A DNA stretch of 35,565 nucleotides from contig JANQKW010000151.1 of assembly GCA_028280905.1 (NCBI GenBank), forward strand, positions 1-35,565. The letters are read 5' to 3'. The translations under genes were made by a program, and so were the position numbers. The stretch comes from Porticoccaceae bacterium. Its GTDB lineage: Bacteria; Pseudomonadota; Gammaproteobacteria; Pseudomonadales; Porticoccaceae. The notes under the pieces are model-generated. The model saw only the letters and a program-made list of their open reading frames with translations. It was not told where the DNA came from and did not search any database. Position 1 is the first letter of the stretch. Each line of letters starts with the position of its first letter. Below, one piece after another: positions 1 to 35,565 of this stretch.

Positions 1-4
1 GCCA

Positions 5-98
5 TCTGGGAACAGTGTTTGAGACTCGCTGTGAATACGTCCGTGTAAGCTCCGCACCGGCATCCCTGCCGGTGAGGGTCTCAAACACTGTTCCCAGA
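5..98 (-). repeat. R1, structured repeat copy (pair C1, left member)
   Basis: The closing stem is a perfect 21-bp inverted repeat, 5-25 with 78-98. The 52-nt core (26-77) holds hairpin 1 (TAC 36-38, loop GTCCGT 39-44, GTA 45-47) and hairpin 2 (CACCGGC 55-61, loop ATCCCT 62-67, GCCGGTG 68-74). On the minus strand the loops read ACGGAC and AGGGAT, so both contain ANGGA. The copy lies just past the stop codon of the minus-strand hydrolase gene, so it would be in the 3' part of that transcript. No U-tract follows, so it is not a standard intrinsic terminator. Confidence 0.9.
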
Positions 99-223
99 CA
101 GCCACTAACGACGGTGCGACAATTCAGGCAATCTTTCAAACTTAAAATACGATCTGAGCGGCCCTGGATAAAGTTCCCCATCGAGACTTACACAATCACA
201 AGTATCATCAGTACGAGCGGGTG

Positions 224-317
224 TCTAGGGACGCCTTTTGAGACCCTCGTCGACAGGGATGTCGACGCGGAGCGCCCAGGGATGGGTTCACAGCGAGTCT
301 CAAAGGGCGTCCCTAGA
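224..317 (+). repeat. R2, structured repeat copy (pair C1, right member)
   Basis: It is an inverted partner of R1 with the same total length (94 nt). The closing stem is 21 bp, 224-244 with 297-317, with one G-U type difference. Its sequence matches that of R1 only in the eight bases next to the core. The core is 245-296 (52 nt). Hairpin 2 is CGTCGAC, loop AGGGAT (255-260), GTCGACG. Hairpin 1 is CCC, loop AGGGAT (278-283), GGG. The stem bases differ from R1 on both sides of each stem, while the loops keep ANGGA. Outside the pair, GCCATCT (1-7) faces AGATGGC (315-321), an outer inverted repeat. Confidence 0.9.
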
Positions 318-341
318 TGGCCGCGGGATGATGGCACCAGT

Positions 342-1742: not shown

Positions 1743-1988
1743 TATCTCCGGGTCCCTGTTGGATCACTTGCGTTTGGACAGCAAGTCTTTAGCCTTGTCC
1801 CGAAATCGACGCGGTTTTCTGCCATTTGAATTCAAATCACGGGGTTGTGCGCAGCCATAATTCTAGGGTCGGATAGCAATAACACTTACTTTAGGTATAT
1901 ACACCTCGATAATTCATTCCTGCCAAGGCATACTACTGCCCGGAATAATTTAGTCTTACTTTTCGGGGTCGGTGGCGGCTGTGGTCGG

Positions 1989-2064
1989 GTAAGGGTTTCG
2001 GAACACGCTGTGAATACGTCCGTGTAAGCTCTGCCCCTGCCGGCGAAGGTTCCGAAACCCTTAC
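1989..2064 (-). repeat. R3, structured repeat copy with 8-nt deletion
   Basis: The closing stem is a perfect 16-bp inverted repeat (1989-2004 with 2049-2064). The core is only 44 nt because the 5' half of hairpin 2 (8 nt) is missing; the 3' half GCCGGCG remains. Hairpin 1 is intact: TAC, loop GTCCGT, GTA, which reads ACGGAC on the minus strand. Arms match those of R7. The copy is a decayed member with one working loop. Confidence 0.85.
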
Positions 2065-2154
2065 ACAACCCCAACCTTCAAATTAACCGCCGTACTGCTT
2101 TTCCGGAAAAAACACCCTGTTAAACAGCAAAGCGGCGGGTTTGAAGAATTGACT

Positions 2155-2246
2155 GGGGAAGTGTCTTTGCGGACCGTCACCCGCAGGGAAGCGGGTGCCG
2201 AGCGTACAGGGATGTATTCACCGCGTGTCTGCAAAGGCACTTCGCC
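2155..2246 (+). repeat. R4, structured repeat copy with exact CsrA consensus hairpin
   Basis: The closing stem is 2155-2174 with 2227-2246; two of its three imperfections are G-U compatible. The 52-nt core (2175-2226) holds hairpin 2 (CACCCGC, loop AGGGAA 2185-2190, GCGGGTG) and hairpin 1 (TAC, loop AGGGAT 2208-2213, GTA). The bases 2204-2215, GTACAGGGATGT, equal the published CsrA SELEX consensus RUACARGGAUGU at every position. The atp promoter lies downstream, so R4 is not in the atp mRNA leader. Confidence 0.9.
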
Positions 2247-2357
2247 AGGCGATTCGCCACCGACTGTGAAAAAGAGCAAAACCGAATCTCGGCATCCTAA
2301 TTTTTCCGCTTAGGGGCGTCGATACAAAATATTTTCGCCGTTAAACAAAAGCTTGAG

Positions 2358-2826: not shown

Positions 2827-3723
<897 letters not shown>

Positions 3724-17070: not shown

Positions 17071-17086
17071 AGCCCGCTGTCGGGCT
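17071..17086 (+). terminator. GC hairpin after the DUF4153 gene, overlapping R5
   Basis: AGCCCG, loop CTGT, CGGGCT forms a 6-bp stem 17 nt after the stop codon. Its right arm is also the outermost part of the R5 closing stem (from 17082), so the two folds exclude each other. There is no T-run. Confidence 0.4.
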
Positions 17087-17185
17087 TGGGGCACAGGGTT
17101 TCAAAACACGCCGTGAACCCATCCATGGGGGCTCGACGTCGGCATCCCTGCCGACGACGGTTTTGAAACCCTGTGCCCCAAGCCC
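17082..17185 (-). repeat. R5, structured repeat copy (pair C3, left member)
   Basis: The closing stem is the longest here, a perfect 26 bp (17082-17107 with 17160-17185). The core is 17108-17159, 52 nt. Hairpin 1 is CCC, loop ATCCAT (17121-17126), GGG. Hairpin 2 is CGTCGGC, loop ATCCCT (17144-17149), GCCGACG. On the minus strand the loops read ATGGAT and AGGGAT. Confidence 0.92.
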
Positions 17186-17269
17186 TTCGATATCAGGTGC
17201 CGAAACACTATTTTCACATTGTTATTTTGTCTTTTGAAAAGAAAGGACAAGCTCGTGATGCCGCTAAAA

Positions 17270-17369
17270 GTCGTGGTGGTAAGGGTCTGGGACCGTCGCT
17301 GGCAGGGATGCCAGCGCCGAGCCCCCAGGGATGGGTTTACGGCGTGTCCCAGACCCTTGCCAGCACGAC
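17270..17369 (+). repeat. R6, structured repeat copy (pair C3, right member)
   Basis: The closing stem is 24 bp with two differences (17270-17293 with 17346-17369); the T-G pair among them is wobble compatible. The core 17294-17345 is 52 nt. Hairpin 2 is CGCTGGC, loop AGGGAT (17304-17309), GCCAGCG. Hairpin 1 is CCC, loop AGGGAT (17327-17332), GGG. The 84-nt spacer to R5 is unlike the spacer of C2 and C4. R6 would lie in the 3' part of a DUF4153 transcript. Confidence 0.92.
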
Positions 17370-17491
17370 GGCCCATCATCAAGATTTCACCCAAAAACAA
17401 AACTGCTATTGCCAAACTTTTTCGGTCTCCCCAGCAGCGCTGATGGATACTTGTTTTATTTAATTTATTACCCAACATTCACCTGCCTATT

Positions 17492-19690: not shown

Positions 19691-20788
19691 ATGATAAAAA
19701 AGATTGCGCTACTCGGCCTATTGTTGGCTTTTCTCGGTTGCGGCGAGCGCCCGGCTGATAGCGGCGGCCATGCATCGGCAACGCCTGAGCAGACGTTTAA
19801 ATGGAAGTTGGTAACCACCTGGCCGAAAAATTACCCGGGGCTCGGCGAGGCGCCGGAAAACTTCGCCAAAATGGTCGGCGAGATGAGCAACGGCCGGCTG
19901 CAGGTTAAAGTCTTCGGCGCCGGGCAAATGGTTCCCGCGCTGGAAGTGTTTGACGCGGTATCCCAAGGCACGGCGGAAATGGGCCACGGCGCAGCCTACT
20001 ATTGGACGGGAAAAATTAAAGCCGCGTCATTTTTTACCTCGGTTCCATTTGGTTTAAATGCCCAGGAAATGAACGGCTGGCTGCATTATGGCGAGGGTAT
20101 GGCGTTGTGGCGAGAAGTTTACGCGCCCTTCAACCTGGTTCCGTTTGCCGCCGGCAATACCGGCGTGCAGATGGCGGGATGGTTCAATCGTGAGATCAAT
20201 TCGCTGCAGGACCTCCAGGGGTTGATCATGCGCATTCCCGGGTTGGGGGGCGAGGTATTTAACCGCGCCGGGGGCGAGGCGGTTAATATTCCCGGCGGCG
20301 AACTCTATACGTCTATGCAAACCGGGGTGATCGACGCTACCGAGTGGGTCGGGCCGTTCAATGATCTGGCGTTTGGTTTGCACCAGGTCGCCAAATACTA
20401 CTATTACCCAGGCTGGCACGAGCCGGGCCCCACGCTCGAATTGATTGTTAATAAAGCGGCTTACGATTCCCTGCCCAAAGACCTGCAGCAAATCGTCGCG
20501 TCCGCCGCCCGCGCGGTCAACCAGGATATGCTGGATGAATATACGGCGCGCAACAATACGGCGCTTGAGCAGCTGGTTAATGAACATGGCGTACAAGTTC
20601 GCCGCTTGCCCGACGATGTGCTGCAGGAGCTGGCCAGAATCAGCGAGCAGGTAAAAGAAGAAATCGCCGCGGAGGACCCGCTGTTCAAAAAGATATACGA
20701 GTCTCAGCAGGCTTTCCAAGAGCAGGCGGCGGAATACCACAATATTTCGGAGGAAGCCTATTTCGAGGCCCGCCGGCTGACGGACTAA
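19691..20788 (+). CDS. TRAP-type substrate-binding lipoprotein (DctP/TakP-like)
   Basis: The 365-residue protein belongs to the TRAP transporter solute-binding family. Visible segments are KWKLVTTWPKNYPGLG at the mature N-terminus, VFGAGQMVPALEVFDAVSQGTAEMGHG, and MRIPGLGGEVFNRAGGEAVNIPGGELYTSMQTGVIDATEWVGP, as in TakP-like 2-oxo-acid binders. The signal ends FLGC (C17), a reasonable lipobox, so it is probably membrane-anchored. No membrane subunits (DctQ/DctM) are nearby, so it is an orphan. AAGGACAACTCCC precedes the ATG, 15 nt after uvrD, so co-transcription with uvrD is likely. The substrate is not known. Confidence 0.88.
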   Translation: MIKKIALLGLLLAFLGCGERPADSGGHASATPEQTFKWKLVTTWPKNYPGLGEAPENFAKMVGEMSNGRLQVKVFGAGQMVPALEVFDAVSQGTAEMGHGAAYYWTGKIKAASFFTSVPFGLNAQEMNGWLHYGEGMALWREVYAPFNLVPFAAGNTGVQMAGWFNREINSLQDLQGLIMRIPGLGGEVFNRAGGEAVNIPGGELYTSMQTGVIDATEWVGPFNDLAFGLHQVAKYYYYPGWHEPGPTLELIVNKAAYDSLPKDLQQIVASAARAVNQDMLDEYTARNNTALEQLVNEHGVQVRRLPDDVLQELARISEQVKEEIAAEDPLFKKIYESQQAFQEQAAEYHNISEEAYFEARRLTD

Positions 20789-20878
20789 CAGGTGGCGGCT
20801 GAGGTGTAGTTGTTGAGTCGTTTGACGCTGCGGTCCGAAGTAAATTGGGCATACTTTTTACAGGTCGGTGGCGGCCGT

Positions 20879-21074
20879 GGTCGGGTAAGGGCTTCGGAAC
20901 ACGCTGTGAATACGTCCCTGGTCACAATTGCTCCCGGCAATTTGCGACACTTCCTCCATCCTTGGAGGTCGTAAGCTCTGCGCCGGCTTGACCGCCAAGG
21001 ATGGCGGAAATGCCGATATTGCAGGAGCAAATATCGGCCCCTGCCGGCGAAGGTTCCGAAACCCTTACCCGACC
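20879..21074 (-). repeat. R7, structured repeat copy with two nested inserts
   Basis: The closing stem is 22 bp with one mismatch (20879-20900 with 21053-21074). The core is 152 nt, 100 more than in intact copies. Insert 1 (about 20920-20970) interrupts hairpin 1 and carries CCTCC-ATCCTT-GGAGG (20953-20968) and AATTGC-TCCCG-GCAATT (20926-20942). Insert 2 (about 20989-21038) interrupts the loop of hairpin 2 and carries CCGCC-AAGGAT-GGCGG (20992-21007) and a 10-bp stem CCGATATTGC/GCAAATATCGG with loop AGGA. The inserts are related to each other in inverse orientation. Confidence 0.88.
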
Positions 21075-21154
21075 CCAACCTTCAAACCAACCGCCGTACT
21101 GCTTTTGTGGCAAAAGCACCCTCTTAAGTAGTAGAGCGGTAGATCTGTAGAATT

Positions 21155-21254
21155 GCCTGGGGAAGTGCCTTTGCAGACCGTCACCCGCAGGGAAGCGGGT
21201 GTCGAGCTCCCAGGGATGGGTTTACAGCGTGTCTGCAAAGGCACTTCCCCAGGC
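21155..21254 (+). repeat. R8, structured repeat copy (pair C4, right member)
   Basis: The closing stem is a perfect 24 bp (21155-21178 with 21231-21254). The core 21179-21230 is 52 nt. Hairpin 2 is CACCCGC, loop AGGGAA (21189-21194), GCGGGTG, identical to R4. Hairpin 1 is CCC, loop AGGGAT (21212-21217), GGG, where R4 has TAC/GTA: a three-base-pair compensated change between close copies. Confidence 0.93.
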
Positions 21255-21287
21255 GATTCGCCACCGACCTAGAAAAGTATGCCCAAT

Positions 21288-21608
21288 TTATTCCGATCGG
21301 CTTTGGAGTCGTTTCAGAAAAACTGATATTTCTTTTTCCGTTTGCTTGTCGCCTTTGGCATGGGCGATCATCAATCCTTTCTCAAGATAGCCCCGGGCGT
21401 CCTCGTTTGCCCCCGTGGCTATCAGGCTTCTGCCGAGTAGCTTATAAGCCGCCGAGTAGTCCGCGTCCTGCTCGATACAGGATTTCAGGTGGGGTATTGC
21501 TTTTTGGTAAGCCTTTTCGTTGAAATAGGCGCTGCCGAGCCCAAACCTCAGCATCGCGGAATCCTGGCCGGCCGCCAGCATCTTCTCTAGGCCATCCGCG
21601 ATAGACAT
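21288..21608 (-). CDS. Small TPR-repeat protein
   Basis: The 106-residue soluble protein consists mainly of tetratricopeptide repeats, for example FGLGSAYFNEKAYQKAIPHLKSCIEQDADYSAAYKLLGRSLIATGANEDARGYLEKGL. No signal peptide or enzymatic domain is visible, so it probably works as a cytoplasmic adaptor. It starts 7 nt after the trkH stop codon and is the last gene of that operon, so it may be linked to K+ transport only by transcription. Its stop codon lies within the terminal inverted repeat of C4. Confidence 0.82.
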   Translation of the reverse strand: MSIADGLEKMLAAGQDSAMLRFGLGSAYFNEKAYQKAIPHLKSCIEQDADYSAAYKLLGRSLIATGANEDARGYLEKGLMIAHAKGDKQTEKEISVFLKRLQSRSE

Positions 21609-28572: not shown

Positions 28573-29670
28573 GTGGACAGGGAAGCGGAAGCCGCACTGA
28601 TAGTGCAAAATCTCACCGGTTTTACGCTAGCCGTTCAGCAGCGCTTGCTGCAGAAGCTGGGTTCGTTTTCGGTTATTCTCGACGCCGAGCCGCGTTCCAC
28701 GGGCGATAAGCTTGATGCCGCTTGGCAGGCGTCCTTGAGAAGCTTCCGGGAAGCGCCCGATAGTGTGCTGAATCTCGTGGAGGACCAGCGCGAGATACTG
28801 CTCCAACACCAGGCCGAAGTACTGCCATTCACCGACAGCCGATATCCGGCGCTGCTCAAAGAGATAAGTTCGCCTCCTCCGGTGTTATTTGTAAGGGGCA
28901 ACGCGGAGGCCTTAAGCTTGCCGCAGCTAGGCATTGTCGGAAGCAGGCGACCAACCAAGTCAGGTATTGCTACCGCAAAGGATTTTTCACGCTTTCTGGC
29001 GGCCAACGGATTCGTTATCACCAGCGGTATGGCGCTGGGCATCGACGCTCAGGCTCACTCAGGCGCGCTGGATGCGGGCAAAACCATAGCGGTGACGGGA
29101 AGCGGCATAGATATCGTCTATCCAAAGCAACACAAGACCCTGGAAGCGGCCATAGTGGCCGGTAATGGCGCTGTGGTCTCCGAATTTCTGCCCGGCACTC
29201 AGCCCATCGCGGAAAATTTTCCCAGACGCAACAGAATTATCAGCGGTATGAGCATTGGGGTGCTGGTTGTGGAGGCTGCGATTAGGAGCGGTTCGCTTAT
29301 CACGGCCAGAGAAGCCATGCATCAGGGCCGTGAGGTTTTCGCCATCCCCGGCTCTATTCACAACCCGATGAGCAGAGGTTGCCATCACCTTATCCGAGAG
29401 GGCGCCAAACTAGTGGAAACCGGTGAAGATATTGTGCAGGAGTTGGGAGGCCTGCTGGCCTATAAAGGAGAAGAGATCAATGCCTGCGTGCCATCGGATT
29501 TTACGGAATTGGAGCAAGTCGTTCTCAAGGCTATGGGTTTCGATCCGGTTGATTTCGATAGCCTTATCGAGAGAACGCGCCTGACAATAGTCGAGGTCAA
29601 CCAACAATTGGTTTCGCTGGAACTCAAGGGTGCGGTAGAGAATAGAGACGGGCTTTTCGTCCGTTGCTAG
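28573..29670 (+). CDS. dprA: DNA processing protein DprA (Smf)
   Basis: DprA protects incoming single-stranded DNA and loads RecA in natural transformation. The 365-residue protein has a Rossmann-like DprA core from about residue 115: LGIVGSRRPTKSG, SGMALGIDAQAHSGAL, RNRIISGMS and EAAIRSGSLITAREAMHQGREVFAIPGS. An N-terminal SAM-like region and a C-terminal winged-helix (residues about 300-365) flank it. The start is GTG 28573 behind AAGGAG. The position between tsaP and tsaC matches Pseudomonas. Type IV pilus factor TsaP next door fits a DNA-uptake role, though that is only suggestive. Confidence 0.95.
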   Translation: MDREAEAALIVQNLTGFTLAVQQRLLQKLGSFSVILDAEPRSTGDKLDAAWQASLRSFREAPDSVLNLVEDQREILLQHQAEVLPFTDSRYPALLKEISSPPPVLFVRGNAEALSLPQLGIVGSRRPTKSGIATAKDFSRFLAANGFVITSGMALGIDAQAHSGALDAGKTIAVTGSGIDIVYPKQHKTLEAAIVAGNGAVVSEFLPGTQPIAENFPRRNRIISGMSIGVLVVEAAIRSGSLITAREAMHQGREVFAIPGSIHNPMSRGCHHLIREGAKLVETGEDIVQELGGLLAYKGEEINACVPSDFTELEQVVLKAMGFDPVDFDSLIERTRLTIVEVNQQLVSLELKGAVENRDGLFVRC

Positions 29671-29693
29671 TACTCCTTCAAGGTGATACTGAC
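29668..29693 (+). repeat. Short repeat SR1, starting at the dprA stop codon
   Basis: TAGT[A/G]CTCCTTCAAGG and the following bases recur at 35326-35351 with 22 of 26 positions identical. Each copy starts with the TAG stop codon of the upstream gene (dprA, yheV). CCTTCAAGG inside is a near palindrome. Confidence 0.6.
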
Positions 29694-29813
29694 GGCTCAG
29701 CGGCCATAGGCGCTGGAATTCCCGGCAGGCATTGCCATACTTGTAGGTGATGTTGTTAATTACTGGCGGCGCCCAACCGGCAGCCCGATTCTTTAAAATA
29801 ACGGGAGAAAGTT

Positions 29814-35085: not shown

Positions 35086-35328
35086 ATGTTTAAACCCCAA
35101 AAACGCTTTATTGCCGGCGCTGTTTGTCCCCGCTGTGAGGAAATGGACAAACTGACCGTCTTTTCGCAAGACGGCAAGGACATTCGCGAGTGTGTCAGTT
35201 GCGGTTTTCGGGAAGAGATGCGCTATGAAAATACGCCCCGTGAACTGGATACGCGGGTCAATCGCAGTGCTGAAGAAAAAGTGCAAGAAACCACACCCGT
35301 AAAGATTCTTGATCCGGGAAAGACCTAG
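35086..35328 (+). CDS. yheV: YheV-family putative zinc ribbon protein
   Basis: The 80-residue protein begins MFKPQKRFIAGAVCPRC and has two CxxC pairs, CPRC and CVSC, about 22 residues apart, as in a zinc ribbon. The segment ECVSCGFREEM is diagnostic for the YheV (DUF2387) family. Function is unknown. The C-terminal ~25 residues are a polar tail longer than in E. coli YheV. An in-frame TTG 12 nt upstream is not needed. Short repeat SR2 starts at its stop codon. Confidence 0.88.
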   Translation: MFKPQKRFIAGAVCPRCEEMDKLTVFSQDGKDIRECVSCGFREEMRYENTPRELDTRVNRSAEEKVQETTPVKILDPGKT

Positions 35329-35351
35329 TGCTCCTTCAAGGTGATAATGGC
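35326..35351 (+). repeat. Short repeat SR2, starting at the yheV stop codon
   Basis: This is the second copy of the post-stop repeat seen at 29668-29693 (22 of 26 identical, including CTCCTTCAAGGTGATA). Both copies start with TAG. Confidence 0.6.
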
Positions 35352-35382
35352 GAGGTAACGCAGGAAAGTTGGGATATAGAGT

Positions 35383-35565
35383 CGGTTTTATGTTTTTCTT
35401 TCACAGTCGGTGGCGAATCGCCTGCGGAGATACCTTTGCAGACACGCGGTGAATACGTCCCTGTACGCTCGACACCCGCTTCCCTGCGGGTGACGGTCTG
35501 CAAAGGTATCTCCCCAGTCAATTCTTCAGATCTACCGCTCTACTACTTAAGAAGGTGCTTTTGCC
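35383..35565. repeat. C5, composite fold-back element, cut by the window end
   Basis: The outer end CACAGTCGGTGGCG (35402-35415) and its T-rich flank match the right end of C2 read backward. R9 follows, then the first part of the spacer (35514-35565), which matches the reverse complement of the C4 spacer. The element is thus inverted relative to C2 and C4. The second repeat copy and the far end should lie just outside the window. Confidence 0.85.
35426..35513 (-). repeat. R9, structured repeat copy (in C5)
   Basis: The closing stem is a perfect 18 bp (35426-35443 with 35496-35513). The core 35444-35495 is 52 nt. Hairpin 1 is TAC, loop GTCCCT (35457-35462), GTA. Hairpin 2 is CACCCGC, loop TTCCCT (35480-35485), GCGGGTG. 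Arms are related to R4 and R8, but where R8 has GAAGTGCC R9 has GAGATACC, changed on both sides of the stem. Confidence 0.93.

Follow-up and report, generated by a model that had tools for sequence, protein, structure and literature searches.

Explanations of CsrA control usually invoke a small number of sponge RNAs together with sites in mRNA leaders. According to the accessible text of one report, CsrA and RsmE bind ANGGAN hexaloops, SELEX yielded RUACARGGAUGU, and sites lie 10-63 nt apart, with distances above 18 nt being the best (PMC7652899); ANGGAN is also bound by RsmN and RsmA (PMC3791407, available portion). The TwoAYGGAY motif, which is probably an RNA, was described from the human gut, Gammaproteobacteria, and Clostridiales (PMC2864571, available portion), and CsrA binding has been predicted for it (PMC4333381, available portion). 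In Alcanivorax, two CsrA-related sRNAs are reported, which are not repeats in the accessible part of that source (PMC9788540). Among the titles and abstract openings retrieved for CsrA with repeats or mobile elements, no repeat of the kind presented below is described, and searches with the words of the motif returned unrelated titles only.

Here, we have analyzed a 35,565-nt window (the whole stretch of DNA under study), which is contig C233 of a Porticoccaceae genome of 420 contigs and 3.74 Mb, with particular attention to the element C4 (20841-21290). Relatives of C4 are dispersed across its own genome (110 blast matches), and the core motif was matched 312 times, compared to 0 matches for the reversed control. 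Many copies are found at the ends of contigs, which would be expected of a repeat that interrupts assembly. The C4-type composite consists of an end of type X or Y, unit A, a spacer, unit B in inverted orientation, and again an end of type X or Y; C4 is X-X and C2 is X-Y, and GTCGGTGGCG of C4 recurs in C2 and C5, as the preliminary description had noticed. Unit classes with different arms likewise occur as inverted pairs. In the stretches retrieved, two-unit clusters numbered 40, of which 39 had the order '+-', none '-+', and one '--'; there were also one '+--' cluster and 51 single units, many of the latter being cut by contig ends; this count leaves aside two of the 136 core matches, which lie inside genes and have no hairpin. 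A separate piece, CTAGTACTCCTTCAAGGTGAT, stands alone at 29667-29694 of the window and again at 35325-35352 next to the Y end of C5. Elsewhere in the genome, at the edge of a contig (G000:C159:3-198, L074), two A-half units meet head to head in a near-perfect palindrome, which may be a real foldback or an assembly artefact. The coordinates of all features are listed in Table 1.

Table 1. Repeat elements of the window, parts of C4, and the genes on either side of it.
Feature	Position	Strand	Remarks
C1, inverted pair	1..330		another unit class (GGTGCC outer ends); begins at contig edge
C2, A/B composite	1931..2300		X end left, Y end right
C3, inverted pair	17082..17370		third unit class
Gene convergent with TPR gene	19691..20788	+	dctP/TRAP is the name in the preliminary description, with no family search behind it
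C4, left X-type end	20841..20873	+	inverted repeat, 33 nt
C4, unit A (hairpin)	20874..21080	- (GGA strand)	arms about 20874-20900 and 21053-21080
Module M copy 1, SL1 position of unit A	20919..20970	-	hexaloop AAGGAT in CCTCCAAGGATGGAGG
Module M copy 2, SL2 loop of unit A	20990..21040	+	opposite orientation; hexaloop AAGGAT in CCGCCAAGGATGGCGG
C4, spacer between units A and B	21081..21149		read from sequence
C4, unit B (hairpin)	21150..21259	+ (GGA strand)	29-nt arms, 21150-21178 and 21231-21259
SL2 hexaloop of unit B	21189..21194	+	AGGGAA (ANGGAN)
SL1 hexaloop of unit B	21212..21217	+	AGGGAT (ANGGAN)
C4, right X-type end	21259..21290	-	inverted repeat, 32 nt; consensus to about 21295 (GGAATAA)
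TPR gene, 106 aa	21288..21608	-	TAA stop 21288-21290; last codon GAA 21291-21293
C5, Y end and B unit	35325..35565		cut by contig end

In C4, the outer TAAATTGGGCATACTTTT is present exactly at 20841-20858 (+) and 21273-21290 (-). The inverted repeats first described for it, with 18 identical outer bases, were confirmed, and they run on to GTCGGTGGCG over 33 nt on the left and 32 nt on the right. These 'terminal' repeats are in fact subterminal, since fuller copies carry CACTACTGTCCGGAATAA beyond the C4 ends: family conservation continues outward of the C4 coordinates via GTCCGGAATAA to CACTACTGTCCGGAATAA, about 19 bases further, and in a fuller copy on contig C376, the two ends are identical over 37 nt. 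Outward of its repeats, C4 has a degenerate trace of this continuation on the left (decayed, about 20829-20840) and nothing past about GGAATAA on the right, its outer ends being decayed or lost. By eye, the two ends of each of the X-X copies C4, C257, and C138 agree better with each other than with the ends of other copies. As DNA, C4 folds at -151.9 kcal/mol, compared to -71 +/- 4.86 kcal/mol for shuffles, none of 100 of which reached its value. Unit B alone adopts the three-way fold of the family (-66.9 kcal/mol, z -8.9), RNAfold drawing the SL1 loop with one extra closing pair; its arms are 97% complementary and its modelled core of 96 nt is located at 21157-21252.

On the strand carrying GGA, a unit is 96 nt long and forms a three-way junction composed of a 22-bp variable-arm stem and two hairpins, SL2 (a 7-bp stem with a hexaloop) and SL1 (a short stem with a hexaloop). 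The arms and SL2 stems vary widely from genome to genome. In an alignment of 65 of the 80 units, hand-picked for spread (A1), both partners have changed in 27 of the 32 pairs, and 98.4% of the cells pair versus 71% in shuffles; none of 500 shuffles reached any of the measures, and sliding the pairing partners along the alignment collapsed the signal. An independent consensus fold recovered the three stems and added five further pairs, and single-sequence folds of 17086-17181 and 17272-17367 did not always show the SL1 loop. At one orthologous locus in two genomes (L301/L310, 92.6% identical over 4.2 kb), the arms change in pairs and the hexaloops change at N positions only (ATGGAT to ACGGAC and AAGGAA to ATGGAA).

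Among the 77 of 80 own-genome units that were counted (the other three are not 96 nt long), ANGGAN was found in SL1 of 76 and SL2 of 74. The corresponding values were 34/36 and 29/36 for units from 29 other genomes, 74/77 and 62/77 for units from one genus, most of the misses in these two sets being 7-nt or interrupted loops, and 21/21 for both loops among the best class-wide matches. Since R1, the model of the unit built in this analysis, rewards the loop letters, sets found with it are biased; the least affected is SL2 of the own-genome units, as SL1 alone is covered by the core pattern. In both the set from 29 other genomes and that from one genus, positions 2 and 6 of the hexaloop take all four bases in one loop or more, and positions 1, 3, 4, and 5 are nearly fixed. 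The units have ANGGAN hexaloops closed by a stem, like CsrA/RsmA-binding RNA, and the GGA-to-GGA distance in the 96-nt unit is 23 nt, within the published range of 10-63 nt. Within the window, 12 of the 15 ANGGAN hexaloops with a stem of at least 4 pairs lie inside the five elements.

The two strands of the unit are not equivalent. If only duplex DNA mattered, departures of the G-U and A-C type should be equally common, but the imperfect pairs read on the GGA strand comprise 38 distinct G-U versus 3 A-C (p=1e-8). Counted by cell, the numbers are 46 versus 3 without and 77 versus 3 with the closing pair, and by column 18 versus 3 (p=0.0015); these p-values are optimistic in that the events are related by descent. 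The selection of units, based on a DNA pattern and on Watson-Crick arms, does not favor G-U. Such an excess implies that the GGA strand is the selected strand, most simply as RNA. Within a composite, the two units occupy opposite DNA strands and yet each shows this preference for the strand with its GGA, which is most simply explained if each of them has a role as RNA. At the level of the single unit, tolerance of G-T in single-stranded DNA could also produce this pattern.

Taken as a whole, C4 is a worn member of a dispersed composite repeat without coding content, in which the conserved part is probably a structured RNA of the CsrA type with predicted binding; the repeat would then be a regulatory RNA spread over the genome and no ordinary jumping gene. 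Each composite contains two long hairpin units in inverted order, and one strand of each unit forms the three-way junction, its two ANGGAN hexaloops being separated by 23 nt. A neighboring transcript entering the repeat from either side would have one unit read in the GGA form. A CsrA dimer could then bridge the two loops of that unit, and the copies together may serve as dispersed CsrA landing sites or a sponge in mRNA ends and spacers. At C4 itself, no promoter-like site was found, and the one terminator-like site equals the shuffle mean. We propose more tentatively that the CsrA docking site is the conserved cargo of a genome-wide repeat, forming in Gammaproteobacteria a sponge or landing network that is re-wired as copies appear, vanish, and flip. 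If this is true, a two-unit composite would offer a CsrA-type double hairpin whichever the direction of transcription, and if hundreds of repeats carry the dual site, the free CsrA pool and its targets would depend on the number and position of repeats, and a regulatory role would fall to repeats that have long been dismissed as junk.

A further component of the family is module M, a two-hairpin piece that is also GGA-looped and has 43 pattern matches. In all 30 distinct copies inspected, it is located in the SL1 loop in GGA orientation or in the SL2 loop in reverse. Unit A of C4 carries it at both of these fixed places, where it extends the two loops and interrupts each. A search of plasmids and phages gave no match apart from a 52-base stretch in Halomonas sp. 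PA16-9 (NZ_CP040452.1), in a region of a 1.8-Mb replicon (L327) that is unannotated there and to which R1 gave no score. At about 2945-3080 of that locus, there is a unit-like hairpin with module M in the SL2 loop, and this arrangement therefore extends beyond the genome of C4. In another locus (L280), the orthologous unit is accompanied at about 2513-2570 by a second unit, which is partial and includes a piece resembling module M.

R1 matches were found in 33 of 116 relatives, belonging to 14 families. In the class-wide sample, 54 of 274 genomes were matched, representing 48 of 222 genera; numbers of matches per genome are lower bounds. In a related genus, the GGA strands of two-unit loci likewise run minus first and then plus, L268 being a locus with both units on one strand, and viral contigs gave one pattern match, scored at 22 bits by R1. 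The genome of C4 has one csrA. Across the class sample, csrA was matched in 50 of 54 genomes with R1 and 185 of 220 without, which is the expected direction but weak (Fisher p=0.13); for genomes at least 90% complete, the numbers are 42/43 and 170/193 (p=0.09). The R1 carriers without a csrA match are G122, G183, and G214 (75, 88, and 67% complete) and G309 (98%), the last having at least 9 R1 matches and its csrA being judged absent from its missing among the matched rows.

An explanation that we regard as unlikely takes the hairpins for DNA signals belonging to a REP/BIME- or MITE-like element, with structure and loops kept because a transposase reads them as single-stranded DNA and with the CsrA likeness being secondary. 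The inverted pairs, with '+-' in 39 of the 40 two-unit clusters, would fit such an element, as would inverted ends that are identical within an element and different between elements. The same applies to changes seen in a related genus, where two units between genes in L294 correspond to almost no spacer in L282, and two units in L298 to one in L315, by gain or loss. At about 2060-2155 of L300/L313, the same locus has similar arms and an inverted core, so that the GGA strand switches, which such an element would also explain. However, no target duplication was seen by eye in the L294/L282 pair, at C376, or at C4, whose ends are uncertain, and no autonomous partner of the family was found. Among 26 X-end matches in this fragmented genome of 420 contigs, 23 lead into a unit and the other three into no recognizable mobile gene, and no parent transposase sharing the X ends was recognized among them. 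The search for transposase families covered Y1 only, and the single Y1 gene found has no core in its 2661-base locus; mobilization by a RAYT was rejected as a candidate on this basis, no RAYT flanked by repeats having been found. That gene (G000:C27:841-1161, L115) is a lone Y1 transposase-like gene with short repeats of its own (GGGAATACC in tandem). Moreover, a single DNA strand of the composite cannot explain why both opposite-strand units prefer their own GGA strand, and the loop constraint matches a known RNA-protein code, N positions included. The earlier view of C4 as a mobile fold-back is plausible but incomplete: a dispersed fold-back family does exist, whose copies may have spread by transposition or recombination, but for C4 neither an empty site nor a target duplication was found, and the main content of C4, a conserved hairpin with two CsrA-type loops, had been missed.

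It is still less likely that the hairpins are generic stabilizers or barriers of mRNA 3′-ends, spread by recombination and with no CsrA role. Most composites in the genome do lie in spacers, and C4 lies between convergent genes with no convincing terminator between it and either gene. However, 10 convergent, 17 tandem, and 6 divergent spacers carry composites, compared to 23, 62, and 15 for other gene pairs, giving no clear preference for gene orientation and no clear enrichment of convergent spacers; these counts rely on a crude ORF caller and leave aside 10 clusters that it placed 'inside ORF' as well as 16 for which a flank is missing. In addition, a plain stem would not require A-GGA to be fixed in both loops.

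That C4 is a transposed fold-back that truncated the TPR protein is very improbable: the stop codon indeed lies within the repeat end by family consensus, but the protein is full length compared to its relatives, contradicting the suggestion that it had lost its original C-terminus. TAA is the first three bases of the repeat (21288-21290) in the reading direction of the gene, the stop having originally been noted at this end of C4, and because the consensus of the family reads GGAATAA, the repeat takes in the preceding GAA codon too. The protein ends in KRLQSRSE, five residues past KRL, where relatives have 0 to 6 (KKLSRA, KKLASD, KKLARD, RKLDKAQRP, KKLEKH, KKLEQR, and KKL); the closest TPR genes are from MAGs titled Cellvibrionales and Porticoccus/Porticoccaceae. 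The order trkA-trkH-TPR...dctP-uvrD is kept in six relatives (L035, L036, L038, L044, L045, and L046), which also have an orthologue of the convergent neighbor (19691..20788). In these six, the gap between TPR and dctP contains other DNA and no hairpin unit, and the precise empty site of C4 is therefore not recoverable. The comparison of loci in relatives that had been recommended thus yielded a TPR end comparable to theirs, and neither an empty site nor, by eye, a target-site duplication.

Among known systems, TwoAYGGAY (RF01731, cis-reg, clan CL00106) is the closest kin of the units, both having a stem and two hairpins with A-N-GGA-N loops. The window matched no Rfam family at the gathering threshold; matches to miRNA families and Ysr224 were below gathering scores and reflect the long stems. 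RF01731 had no match in C4 (window and 20800-21320) or in its genome, and C4, failing this model, is a variant of TwoAYGGAY rather than a member by threshold. Of eight R1-family loci, one passed (L158, 45.2 bits; threshold 43) and L160 scored 38.6 bits, below it, and matches of RF01731 and R1 coincide in position and strand in L158, L160, G010:C20, G010:C45, and G111:C5. The loops here are mostly AGGGAN rather than AYGGAY: those of C4 unit B (AGGGAA and AGGGAT) depart from strict AYGGAY and fit the wider ANGGAN. The units also differ in their very high copy number, inverted pairs, shared ends, and extra module M. We therefore regard them as a divergent, amplified form of TwoAYGGAY, which thereby widens from a thinly matched motif (above cut-off in 3 of 107 related genomes) to a repeat carried by 33 of the 116 relatives and by 54 of the 274 class genomes. 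CsrB/CsrC and RsmX/Y/Z are similar in that their ANGGAN hairpin loops bind CsrA/Rsm dimers (PMC3791407 and PMC7652899, available portions), but they are single loci with many sites each, whereas here two sites per unit are repeated genome-wide. REP/BIME/REPIN sequences resemble the C4 family as hundreds of intergenic palindromes in inverted pairs, but they measure 20-40 nt, compared to three-way junctions of about 96-110 nt here, with no RAYT found beside the cores. With MITEs, the family shares inverted ends (37 identical nt in the C376 copy, decayed in C4), a non-coding nature, and dispersal, although no target duplication or partner transposase was found for it.
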